This document shows positions 60,152 to 63,740 of a DNA stretch of 64,000 nt, one piece after another. Every line of letters starts with the position of its first letter. Positions within the stretch are counted from its first letter, which is position 1. The DNA lies in assembly GCF_004761875.1 (NCBI RefSeq), contig NZ_SJEY01000003.1:124001-188000 (forward strand). The letters run 5' to 3'. The DNA is from Roseovarius aestuariivivens. Its GTDB lineage: Bacteria > Pseudomonadota > Alphaproteobacteria > Rhodobacterales > Rhodobacteraceae. The translations under genes and the position numbers were made by a program. A model generated the notes under the pieces. It saw only the letters and a program-made list of their open reading frames with translations. It searched no databases and was not told where the DNA came from.

Positions 60152-61447
60152 TTATTCCGCCGCAACCGCGCTGACGCGTCCGGTTTTCTGCGCCTTGATC
60201 CGATCCTCGATCTCGTCCCGGAAATTGCGGATCAGACCCTGAATGGGCCATGCCGCCGCATCGCCAAGCGCACAGATCGTGTGACCCTCGACCTGCTTTG
60301 TGACATCGAACAGCATGTCGATCTCTTCCACCTCGGCCTCGCCGCGCACCAGCCGGTCCATGACCCGCATCATCCAGCCCGTGCCTTCGCGGCAGGGCGT
60401 GCACTGGCCACAGCTTTCGTGCTTGTAGAACTTCGACAACCGCCAGATCGCCTTGATGATGTCGGTGTCGTTGTCCATCACGATAACCGCCGCCGTGCCA
60501 AGGCTCGACCCGACTTCGCGCAGCGCGTCGAAATCCATCGTGGCGTCTTTCATCTTTTCGCCGCGCACGCACGGCACCGATGAGCCACCCGGAATGACCG
60601 CCTTGAGGTTCTTCCAGCCGCCGCGAATGCCGCCGCAATGCTTCTCGATCAACTCCTCGAAGGAGATCGACATGGATTCTTCCACCACGCAGCGGTTGTT
60701 CACGTGACCCGAGATCGCAAAGATCTTGGTCCCGGCGTTGTTGGGGCGTCCAAAGCCCGCAAACCATTCGGGCCCGCGCCGCAGGATCGTCGGGACGACG
60801 GCGATGGATTCCACGTTGTTCACGGTCGTCGGACAGCCATAAAGCCCCGCACCCGCCGGGAACGGCGGTTTCATCCGCGGCATGCCTTTCTTGCCTTCAA
60901 GGCTTTCCAGAAGCGCGGTTTCCTCGCCACAGATATAGGCCCCGGCCCCGTGAACGAGGTAGAGGTCGAAATCCCAGCCCGACCCGCAGGCATTCTTGCC
61001 GATCAGCCCGTCCTCGTATGCCTCGTCTATCGCGTGCTGCAGCGCTTCTTTCTCGCGGATATATTCCCCGCGAATATAGATATAGCAGGCATGCGCGCCC
61101 ATGCCGAAGCTTGCGATCAGGCAGCCCTCGACCAGCGTATGCGGATCGTGGCGCATAATCTCGCGGTCCTTGCAGGTGCCCGGCTCGGATTCGTCGGCAT
61201 TGACCACCAAATAGCTGGGACGCCCATCGCTCTCCTTGGGCATGAAAGACCACTTGAGGCCCGTCGGGAACCCCGCACCGCCACGCCCGCGCAGTCCGCT
61301 GGCCTTCACCTGCTCGACGATCCAGTCCCGTCCGTTGGCCAGGATTTTCGCAGTCCCGTCCCAATGGCCACGCGCCTTTGCGCCCTTCAGGCTACGGTCG
61401 TGCATGCCGTAGAGATTGGTAAAGATGCGATCTTCGTCTTTCAGCAT
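60152..61447 (-). CDS. nuoF: NADH-quinone oxidoreductase subunit F
   Basis: A 431-residue NADH- and FMN-binding subunit. The NADH/FMN loop [20 protein letters not shown] lies near residue 50, [19 protein letters not shown] near 168, and the N3 cluster is [13 protein letters not shown] near 342 with CALGDAAAW later. It is the entry point of electrons. It starts 4 bases after the DUF5337 gene. Confidence 0.97.
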
Positions 61448-61451
61448 AGCG

Positions 61452-61670
61452 TTATCCCTGATCCTTCCGGCGGTCGCGCCAGATTTGGTAGATGAGCCAG
61501 ATCGCCACGGCGAACCCGCCGAGCGCCACCAGATCGAAGGTCAGGCGCAGCGATTGGCTGAACCCCTCCTTTTCTCCGATAAGCGTGATGAGCACCCAGA
61601 ACACGCCCGTGCCCGCGATCACCATCGCAGCCCGGCGCCCCCGTTTGTCCTCTGTCCCGCTCTGGCTCAT
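61452..61670 (-). CDS. DUF5337 family small membrane protein (nuo accessory)
   Basis: A 72-residue protein with two hydrophobic segments (near residues 16-33 and 45-63) that fits the DUF5337 family found next to nuoF in Rhodobacterales. It probably spans the membrane twice. ATG 61670 (MSQSGTEDK) is chosen; an in-frame ATG lies at 61679. Function unknown. Confidence 0.8.
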
Positions 61671-61683
61671 GCAACCCACTCAT

Positions 61684-62502
61684 TCAATAAACATCACCCT
61701 TGTCGACGCGCTTGGAAAACTCCGTATCCCCTCCCGCGGCAAGGATCTTGGCTTGCGCGATCCAGTCATCGCGCGTCACCCGGCCCTTGAACCCTTTGAG
61801 ATTGGCATTGACCCACGCCACCTCTTCCGGGCTCCATCCTGCGATCTGGTCGAAATGATAAAAGCCCATGTCGTTCAGCATCGTCTCAAGTTTCGGCCCC
61901 ACGCCCTTGATTTCCTTCAGGTTATCGGCCTTTCCGCCGCGCGGTTCATCAAGCGACTCGGGGCGCGTGCCCTCGTTTTCTCCCTCATGAACCCCGTCCG
62001 CGTCATAGTCGTGCGACACCTGCGCGCCAGCCTCGGAATCGGCGCTCTCTGACACGAACAGTTGGGAGGAGTCCGCCTTGCTGTCGAGATCCTCGGGCGC
62101 TTTGGTCGCGCCTTCCCCGGCGTCGCTGTCACCGCCGTATTTCCAGCTTCCCTTGGAACTGGCGATCTCTTCCTCACCTTTCAGTTTCTTGCTGGGCTTC
62201 ACGACCGCTGCCGCGCTGGCCGCCATGTCCACAACGCTTTGGGCCACGTTGCTGACTGCCCCGCTCGTCGGCATCGGGGCGGAGGTCACGCTCGCATCCT
62301 CATCGCCGTCCTCATCCTCGTCGTCCCAGCAAAAGAGCTGGATCAGAACCAGCGCCATGAAGATCGCCAGCGCGAGGCCGACAAGAAGCGCCACGATGAA
62401 ACTGCCCTGCATGCTCATCAGGATCACGGCCAGAAGGCCCGCCCCGGCGGACAAGCCCCAGCAGCCCATCCGGCACTGCGCCACGAAATCATTTCCAAAC
62501 AT
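61684..62502 (-). CDS. Membrane protein with a NuoE-type helix-hairpin-helix C-terminal domain
   Basis: A 272-residue protein. Two membrane helices at the N-terminus (residues 14-30 and 36-58, the second followed by an acidic DDEDEDGDED) are joined by an acidic, Ser/Ala-rich linker to a C-terminal domain of about 78 residues ([30 protein letters not shown]). That domain is nearly the same as the C-terminal extension of NuoE (next gene); 56 of 78 aligned positions are identical by eye. The KGVGPKLE segment is a helix-hairpin-helix. It is not a standard complex I subunit. It starts 35 bases after nuoE. Confidence 0.85.
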   Translation of the reverse strand: MFGNDFVAQCRMGCWGLSAGAGLLAVILMSMQGSFIVALLVGLALAIFMALVLIQLFCWDDEDEDGDEDASVTSAPMPTSGAVSNVAQSVVDMAASAAAVVKPSKKLKGEEEIASSKGSWKYGGDSDAGEGATKAPEDLDSKADSSQLFVSESADSEAGAQVSHDYDADGVHEGENEGTRPESLDEPRGGKADNLKEIKGVGPKLETMLNDMGFYHFDQIAGWSPEEVAWVNANLKGFKGRVTRDDWIAQAKILAAGGDTEFSKRVDKGDVY

Positions 62503-62537
62503 TTGTCATATCCCCCTGAAGCGGCTTTGGGATCGCC

Positions 62538-63740
62538 CTAGTAGACGTCCCCTTTTTTGACCTTATCAGAAAATTCCGTGCTGCCACCTTCGGCAAGCGT
62601 CTGTGCCTGATCGACCCAGTTGTCGCGGCTGACCCGGCCCTTGAAACCCTTGAGGTTCTCATCGACCCAAGCCACCTCTTCGGCGGTCCATCCGGCGATC
62701 TGATCGAAGTGGAAGAAGCCCAGCGAATGCAGCAGCTCTTCAAGCTTCGGACCGACGCCCTTGATCATTTTCAGATCGTCCGCCGCGCCATCGCGCGGGG
62801 CCGAGAGCGACTCCGGCTTGGTTCCCGTGGGCACCGCCGCCGTCGTTTCGTCTGTCTCGGCAGCAGGCTCGCGCTTCGGACGCGCCTTTTCTTCGGCCTT
62901 CGCCTCGGATTTCGATCCACCGGTCTTGTCCGGGGTGTCTTCGGCCTTGGGTTTCGGGGCGGTCTTGGCGGCCGAGGTGACCGGATCATCGCCCGCCGCC
63001 GCGTTGGGCTTGGTCGGTTTGTGGTTGGCGCCTTTGTCGCGCCACGGCGCCAGCAAGGGCACCTCGGTGCCGTCGATGCGCTTGACCGTATCGCCCAGGT
63101 CGGTGGCCAGCTGCACCGACGCGTTGTATTTCGTATGGCCGGACTCGAACTCTTTGAGCGTCGTCAGCCCGCCCTCGGGTTCCGACGCAAAGCGCCCGTT
63201 CTGCGGCCCCGGGACCGGTACCTTGCCCGCCGCCAGCTCGTCGAGAATCTCCGCGAAACGCGCGGCGGTCAGGTCCTCATAGTAATCCTTGCCGATCTGA
63301 GCCATCGGCGCGTTCGCGCAGGCGCCAAGACATTCCACCTCTTCCCAGCTCAGCTTGCCGTCCGACGAAAGCTCGAACGGGTTGGGCGCGATCTTCTCTT
63401 TGCAGACCCCGATAAGGTCCTCGGCCCCGCAAATCATGCAGGACGTGGTGCCGCAGATCTGGATATGGGCCACCTGCCCGACCGGCTGCAGCTGAAACAT
63501 GAAGTAGAAGCTCGCCACCTCCAGCGCGCGCATATAGGCCATGCCAAGCATGTCCGCCACGGCCTCGATCGCGGGTTTCGTCAACCAGCCTTCCTGTTCC
63601 TGCGCACGCCACAGAAGCGGAATGATCGCGCTCGCCTGGCGCCCCTCGGGATACTTGGCGATCTGGGCCTCGGCCCACGCCTTGTTCTCGGGCGTGAAGG
63701 CAAAGCTCTCGGGCTGCTCGGGGTGAAGGCGGCGTAGCAT
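62538..63740 (-). CDS. nuoE: NADH-quinone oxidoreductase subunit E with C-terminal extension
   Basis: A 400-residue NuoE, about twice the usual length near 165-220. The first 200 residues are the thioredoxin-like 2Fe-2S (N1a) domain: CGTTSC near residue 97 and CLGAC near 138 supply the four ligands. After a Lys/Glu/Thr/Pro-rich linker, the last 78 residues form a helix-hairpin-helix-like domain also present in the adjacent membrane protein. It transfers electrons from NuoF-bound NADH. The ATG directly abuts the stop of a small lipoprotein gene. Confidence 0.95.

Follow-up and report, generated by a model that had tools for sequence, protein, structure and literature searches.

A homologue of the photosystem subunit protein-O, encoded beside nuoE in Roseovarius aestuariivivens, carries the C-terminal domain of NuoE and may act as a membrane adaptor

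The window analysed here, a stretch of 64,000 nucleotides from Roseovarius aestuariivivens (contig NZ_SJEY01000003.1, positions 124,001 to 188,000), ends in genes for complex I, and the minus-strand order at this end is nuoE, a gene for a homologue of protein-O, a gene for a DUF5337 protein and nuoF (Table 1). The ORF coordinates leave a gap of 35 bases between nuoE and the protein-O gene. In an NCBIfam scan NuoE satisfies the model of the long NuoE form (NF009040, PRK12373), which it matches over its length without notable difference. The NuoE chain of PDB entry 8qby (8qby_E, 239 aa), which we take to be that of P. denitrificans, aligns only to residue 234 and therefore lacks the extension of the window NuoE. 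The DUF5337 ORF passes PF17272 in a Pfam scan (77.2 bits, gathering cut-off 27). Small membrane ORFs that from reading look DUF5337-like (the Pfam scan covered that of the window alone) also precede nuoF where protein-O is absent (L053, L058, L059, L062, L064, L071, L074, L076, L103, L121, L125 and others).

Table 1. Features of the nuoE-nuoF region, in window coordinates
Feature	Position	Strand	Basis
nuoE, long form (400 aa)	62538..63740	-	NCBIfam NF009040 621.4 bits, cut-off 514, residues 1-398; Pfam PF01257 172.9 bits
NuoE thioredoxin-like [2Fe-2S] core, residues 24-169	63234..63671	-	PF01257 match range
NuoE C-terminal helix-hairpin-helix-like domain, residues about 318-386	62583..62789	-	alignment and AlphaFold2 model
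NuoE terminal tail ending KGDVY, residues 387-400	62541..62582	-	alignment; TEF/TDF-type tail counts
protein-O homologue (272 aa)	61684..62502	-	8yy9_O E 1.7e-50, 9wqv_a E 3.4e-30
protein-O transmembrane hairpin, residues 8-59, with Cys10 and Cys58	62326..62481	-	VIA-align on 8yy9_O; Cys pair
protein-O linker motif VVKPSKKLKGEEEIASSKGSWKY, residues 100-122	62137..62205	-	motif HMM and peptide searches
protein-O C-terminal domain, residues about 190-258	61729..61935	-	identity with NuoE; AlphaFold2 model
protein-O terminal tail ending TEFSKRVDKGDVY, residues 259-272	61687..61728	-	alignment; tail counts
DUF5337 small membrane protein, between protein-O and nuoF	61452..61679	-	PF17272 E 9.1e-22
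nuoF	60152..61447	-	ORF, name assigned by reading; nuoF of the survey stretches was located with its translation as query

The protein encoded between nuoE and nuoF combines a two-helix hairpin, a linker of low predicted order and a NuoE-type domain with the TEF...KGDVY end. An earlier note on this DNA had drawn attention to the shared C-terminus, and a gapless alignment bears out its count: NuoE and its neighbour have 56 identities over their last 78 residues, the KGVGPKLE hairpin and the KGDVY end being common to both, with a local score of 380, where 200 shuffles gave at most 55. The two membrane helices that the note had read in the neighbour appear again in the AlphaFold2 model (residues 3-30 and 35-58). 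Its acidic linker does exist in the window protein (WDDEDEDGDED) but is peculiar to it, the window's own being the 1 sequence among 87 aligned relatives with at least six acidic residues (D/E) in the 12 that follow the hairpin. At the DNA level the two tails share 167 of 234 bases and 38 of 78 third positions, with the same codon at 30 of the 56 identical residues, so that the relationship in the window genome is an old one and not a recent copy. A recent duplication was rejected: the synonymous identity of the pair, 0.49, equals the 0.49 of GC3-matched controls, and the same comparison gives no sign of recent conversion in this genome. Across the survey described below, a tail of the TEF/TDF type ends 67 of 114 NuoE copies of the domain and 61 of 90 protein-O copies, as against 0 of 9 soluble and 0 of 25 other copies.

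The neighbour was recognized as a protein-O homologue by a search of solved-structure sequences, in which it matched 8yy9_O ("Reaction center protein O chain") in the stretches 9-131 and 171-272, and also 9wqv_a. The modelled hairpin, whose block pLDDT is 73 for residues 1-10 and 85-93 for residues 11-60, superposes with residues 8-58 on residues 8-59 of 8yy9_O (VIA-align Z 8.4, 0.8 Å, 51 aligned of 52). The titles returned by Foldseek describe 8yy9 as an RC-LH1 complex of a marine photoheterotroph, 9lts as the RC-LH1 of D. shibae and 9wqv as the LH1-RC of Rhodovulum sulfidophilum; since the Foldseek E-values are only 0.5-2, the identification rests on the sequence match and the VIA-align superposition. 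The protein in 8yy9 is that of D. shibae (ABV93056.1); its sequence recurs in 8yz2, 9jpb and 9km0, is encoded exactly by one survey genome (G035) and includes, as a fragment, the 76-residue chain "LRC" of 9lts, also present in 9ltv.

As described in PMC12079452, residues 8-59 of D. shibae protein-O sit between the L subunit and LH1 alpha subunits 11 and 12, a disulfide joins Cys10 to Cys59 on the cytoplasmic side, and the remainder of the chain is untraced. The same source places the gene between nuoE and nuoF, likens the C-terminal domain to the C-terminal ends of NuoE and other proteins, and leaves the function of the protein open. The core of the tail-sharing observation is thus already in print for another species; our literature search, which mostly did not extend to subscription papers, found nothing further on protein-O or the NuoE tail. 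The window and D. shibae proteins have in common the hairpin, the Cys pair, the linker motif, the C-terminal domain, the tail and the position of the gene. They differ in length (272 versus 239 aa) and in the acidic stretch, found in the window protein only among the 87 aligned. Chain a of 9wqv, on which the literature search found no paper, resembles the window protein in its hairpin (Z 7.6, 4.5 Å, 69 aligned) and C-terminal domain; its deposited sequence stops at residue 229, without the TEF...KGDVY tail. By its description in PMC12079452, Protein-U of the Rhodobacter sphaeroides RC-LH1 has a hairpin and a place between reaction centre and LH1 like those of protein-O, with a distinct sequence. 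The window genome encodes pufL, pufM and pufC, so the window protein may be a member of an RC-LH1 complex; PufX gave no match there at E 0.01.

The distribution of the two proteins was surveyed in 149 genomes, each from a different genus of the window's family and the window genome among them. NuoE is present in 143 of the 149 and the reaction-centre L/M family in 61; the fetched stretches contained NuoE in 142 genomes and nuoE together with nuoF in 138, which were counted, the other 11 being excluded. The NuoE extension occurs in 111 of these 138 genera and protein-O in 89: both in 78, the extension alone in 33, protein-O alone in 11 and neither in 16. Protein-O is commoner with the extension (78/111) than without it (11/27; Fisher 0.0065), and commoner at nuoE-nuoF in genera with puf genes (43/55) than in those without (46/83; Fisher 0.0067); the extension itself is rarer in phototrophs, 39/55 versus 72/83 (Fisher 0.028), and phototrophs make up 8 of the 11 genera that have protein-O without it. 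These p-values, like all others given here, are exploratory, come from many tests and are uncorrected for their number. Pagel tests gave p 0.046 for extension and protein-O, 0.020 for puf and protein-O and 0.016 for puf and extension, from a table that scored two genomes (G016 and G058) as lacking protein-O, which the corrected counts score as present.

These counts bear directly on the co-occurrence of the two proteins that the earlier note had wished to see surveyed: they do occur together in 78 of 138 genera, but each is also found alone. Because of these separate occurrences the NuoE tail and protein-O are not obligate partners, and obligate pairing was rejected. The idea that the domain tethers NuoEF to the membrane, which the note had put forward, is accordingly not supported in its obligate form, the extension lacking protein-O in 33 genera and the reverse holding in 11; as anatomy, a membrane-anchored copy of the NuoE tail is right, but the documented place of the anchor is RC-LH1 and not complex I. 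The distribution of protein-O, including its presence in 46 of 83 genera without reaction-centre genes, is new relative to PMC12079452. Protein-O and PufX were also considered as alternatives for one slot; the data do not support this, protein-O being found in 18 of 21 genera with PufC only and in 23 of 30 with PufX only (p 0.49), groups to which neither G016 nor G058 belongs.

The cysteines at the ends of the hairpin, Cys10 and Cys58 in the window protein, are retained or lost together: among 87 aligned protein-O sequences 58 have both, 29 neither and none a single one, which supports a probable disulfide as in D. shibae, or at least a joint role. Among phototrophs the pair is found in 15 of 18 PufC-only genera versus 7 of 23 with PufX only (Fisher 0.0013). 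This association persists in tree-aware comparisons (Pagel p 0.018 on 41 tips, with rates poorly determined; shuffles inside bins of 4 or 6 tree neighbours, p 0.018 and 0.005), which suggests that the hairpin may adapt to the architecture of the reaction centre. That protein-O persists without reaction-centre genes says that the reaction centre is not the hairpin's only use.

One possibility is that protein-O, like Protein-U, simply serves RC-LH1 as a subunit for assembly or for the quinone path, its nuo position and NuoE-like tail being historical. This is the proposal of the D. shibae authors themselves (PMC12079452), and it draws on (i) structures solved in two species, D. shibae and Rhodovulum sulfidophilum, (ii) the higher frequency of protein-O in phototrophs, (iii) the dependence of the Cys pair on reaction-centre type and (iv) the 8 phototrophs with protein-O but without the NuoE tail. 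We nevertheless consider it rather unlikely: protein-O is not only a part of the photosystem, as more than half of the genera without puf genes have it, the Cys pair is commoner in non-phototrophs (36/45 aligned) than in phototrophs (22/42), and 12 of 55 phototrophs lack protein-O at nuoE-nuoF, one of which (G082) has a copy of the domain elsewhere.

Between hairpin and domain, protein-O contains a motif of approximately VKPSxxLxGqxELAxRKGsWkY, which also occurs in some NuoE proteins. A peptide search with a consensus of 27 residues yielded 47 matches, spread over 36 of the 149 genomes. Within the nuoE-nuoF stretch, NuoE accounts for 8 of them, other ORFs that bear the domain for 30 and domain-less ORFs for 8, and a single match lies outside it. 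A narrow regular expression (22 starting hits) counts the motif in at least 26 of 87 protein-O sequences. The motif is thus nearly confined to NuoE and protein-O. The domain-less ORFs read as hairpin plus motif, that is protein-O minus the domain, in 8 genomes (G005, G031, G038, G056, G057, G073, G078 and G110). In the protein-O of G097 (L044:1168-2250, minus-strand reading) the motif is present three times. The sole match beyond the nuoE-nuoF stretch lies, by reading, at the N-terminus of an ABC-transporter ATPase (L231:1720-2721, in G035), whose gene adjoins one that reads as dihydropyrimidinase-like.

The history of the two tails includes exchange between them. In a tree of 238 copies we saw no clean NuoE and protein-O clades but 57 label changes, although with only 85 columns little support could be expected. 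Mean identities are 64.3% among NuoE copies, 64.1% among protein-O copies and 63.0% between NuoE and protein-O of different genomes; inside genomes, NuoE and protein-O reach 67.0% (76 genomes), beyond the 64.7% maximum of 2000 shuffles. Synonymous identity is also raised inside genomes (0.566 versus 0.530 between; 74 genomes, Wilcoxon 0.003), and in 4 genomes the identical runs of the pair exceed the 99.9th percentile of between-genome pairs. In G103 (L055) the domain DNA is 97.3% identical with a 130-base identical run, a recent event of either gene conversion or copying between the neighbours. Gene conversion therefore happens, given the raised synonymous identity and the long identical runs, of which that of G103 is clear. 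When only the domain core was compared and the 4 conversion suspects were dropped (72 genomes), the pair was still 68.25% identical inside genomes, versus 65.2% overall, 66.0% in GC bins and 66.05% among tree neighbours, and in both binned tests 0 of 5000 shuffles reached 68.25%. The two tails are thus about 2 points more alike inside genomes, partly through gene conversion. This likeness fits a pairing of the tails, and also gene conversion. Other characters of the two copies, namely the tail, the final Tyr and a loop deletion, are uncorrelated inside genomes (p 0.42, 0.32 and 0.29). A contig of the Rhizobiaceae group encodes a NuoE that bears the domain and, directly after it, a protein in which reading shows two hydrophobic stretches, and the domains of these neighbours are sisters in the tree (support 0.936).

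The domain itself is predicted with confidence (AlphaFold2 on NuoE residues 305-400 with 52 sequences: pLDDT 92, pTM 0.82). Its best VIA-align matches are a tie between RadA N-terminal domains (Z 7.1, 2.3 Å, 59 aligned) and NusA AR2 (Z 6.5, 2.6 Å, 64 aligned of 65), at Z-values that, being below 8, may reflect only a common arrangement. Foldseek gave no match for the model at E 0.001, and Pfam HHH_5 (PF14520) was not reached (15.5 and 15.4 bits, gathering cut-off 27). According to PMC6614801, NusA AR2 has a double helix-hairpin-helix fold and binds both SuhB and the C-terminal domain of RNA polymerase alpha. The NuoE tail has a comparable fold, likewise at the C-terminus, but the resemblance is one of fold only, and Pfam and NCBIfam scans listed no NusA model for NuoE or protein-O. 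The mean net charge of the core is mildly negative, -1.1 in NuoE and -0.4 in protein-O (range -7 to +4). The long linker that precedes the domain in protein-O has low predicted order in the AlphaFold2 model. From the NusA AR2-like fold, the mildly acidic core and the place after such a linker, we infer that the shared C-terminus may be a docking domain.

It is also a general module, since the same domain is found in the NCBIfam models of ribosomal proteins L21 and S2 and of the phasin PhaH. A domain profile finds 3 copies in the window genome, in NuoE, protein-O and bL21, the last belonging to the alphaproteobacterial bL21 family NF008915 (354.7 versus 281 bits) and differing from the other two in its host and in lacking the TEF...Y tail. 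A binding of nucleic acid or ribosomes, for instance in membrane-coupled synthesis of complex I, would be in keeping with the RadA matches and with the presence of the module in L21 and S2. However, the core is mildly acidic, and the protein-binding NusA AR2 fits about as well as the DNA-related domains at these Z-values; this role, of which the earlier note had offered nucleic-acid binding in its second reading, is weakly disfavoured by these data and we regard it as very improbable.

Some genomes have further copies. Three of these, away from nuoE (G082, G120 and G123), have one predicted hydrophobic segment each. In 9 genomes the interval from nuoE to nuoF contains a further ORF with the domain that was scored as soluble, that of G016 being in fact protein-O. 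A third, apparently soluble copy lies between protein-O and nuoF in L042, L049, L073, L110, L141, L142 and L146; the N-termini of these soluble copies look phasin-like by eye, and the 3 that were scanned stay below the PhaH cut-off (67-78 versus 250 bits).

Could the likeness of NuoE and protein-O have no functional content? The module would then be a widespread one copied between neighbours and kept alike by gene conversion, protein-O working by its hairpin alone. The visible conversion in G103, the 8 genomes with hairpin and motif but no domain, the separate occurrence of the NuoE tail and protein-O, and the presence of the module on bL21 and other unrelated hosts all speak for this explanation, which we hold to be somewhat unlikely. 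It leaves the retention of the NuoE tail in 111 of 138 genera unexplained, and the linker motif hardly occurs outside the pair; in addition, the excess likeness survives removal of the 4 suspects and comparison within GC and neighbour bins, although old conversion that escaped detection could also account for it.

We tentatively propose instead that protein-O is a membrane adaptor displaying the docking domain of NuoE. In phototrophs its hairpin would dock into RC-LH1, a contact with which the dependence of the Cys pair on reaction-centre type agrees, and in non-phototrophs into another membrane energy complex, most likely complex I itself. The flexible arm of protein-O would present the same docking domain as complex I carries on NuoE, and the two tails would pair, or both bind one common partner. 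As a result, the NADH end of complex I would be brought to the quinone machinery of the membrane, or the assembly of the two would be helped. The proposal is based on (i) the homology and geometry of the hairpin and its position in RC-LH1, (ii) the retention of protein-O without puf genes, together with its association with the NuoE extension and with puf genes, (iii) the confined linker motif, (iv) the likeness of the tails within genomes and (v) the pair on the Rhizobiaceae-group contig. Against it count the separate occurrence of the tails, the 8 genomes without the domain, the lack of character correlation, the small size of the excess and the generality of the module. The strongest of the counter-evidence is the separate occurrence of the tails together with the relative rarity of the NuoE extension among phototrophs.

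It is tempting to go further and view protein-O as a switchable bridge, its hairpin in RC-LH1 (or in complex I or another complex) and its tail paired with NuoE, giving a respiratory-photosynthetic supercomplex encoded from the nuo operon. We find this improbable: a bridge between photosystem and complex I by tail pairing is disfavoured because the extension is rarer in phototrophs and most genera with protein-O alone are phototrophic. If the tails do meet, they would amount to a gene-encoded connection of photosynthetic with respiratory electron transfer, a matter long discussed for purple bacteria. Protein-O was first found as an unexplained photosystem subunit; its location in the complex I operon, its retention without reaction-centre genes and the two modules that it has in common with NuoE make its function now testable in relatives that have no photosystem.

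Outside the family the domain is found as well: a search across the class at E 1e-15 gave matches for 17 of 190 genomes, of which 3 belong to the window's family. Four genomes of other alphaproteobacterial families (G330, G205, G218 and G336) have 4-6 domain matches each, those of G330 lying partly in open frames of 613-680 residues.
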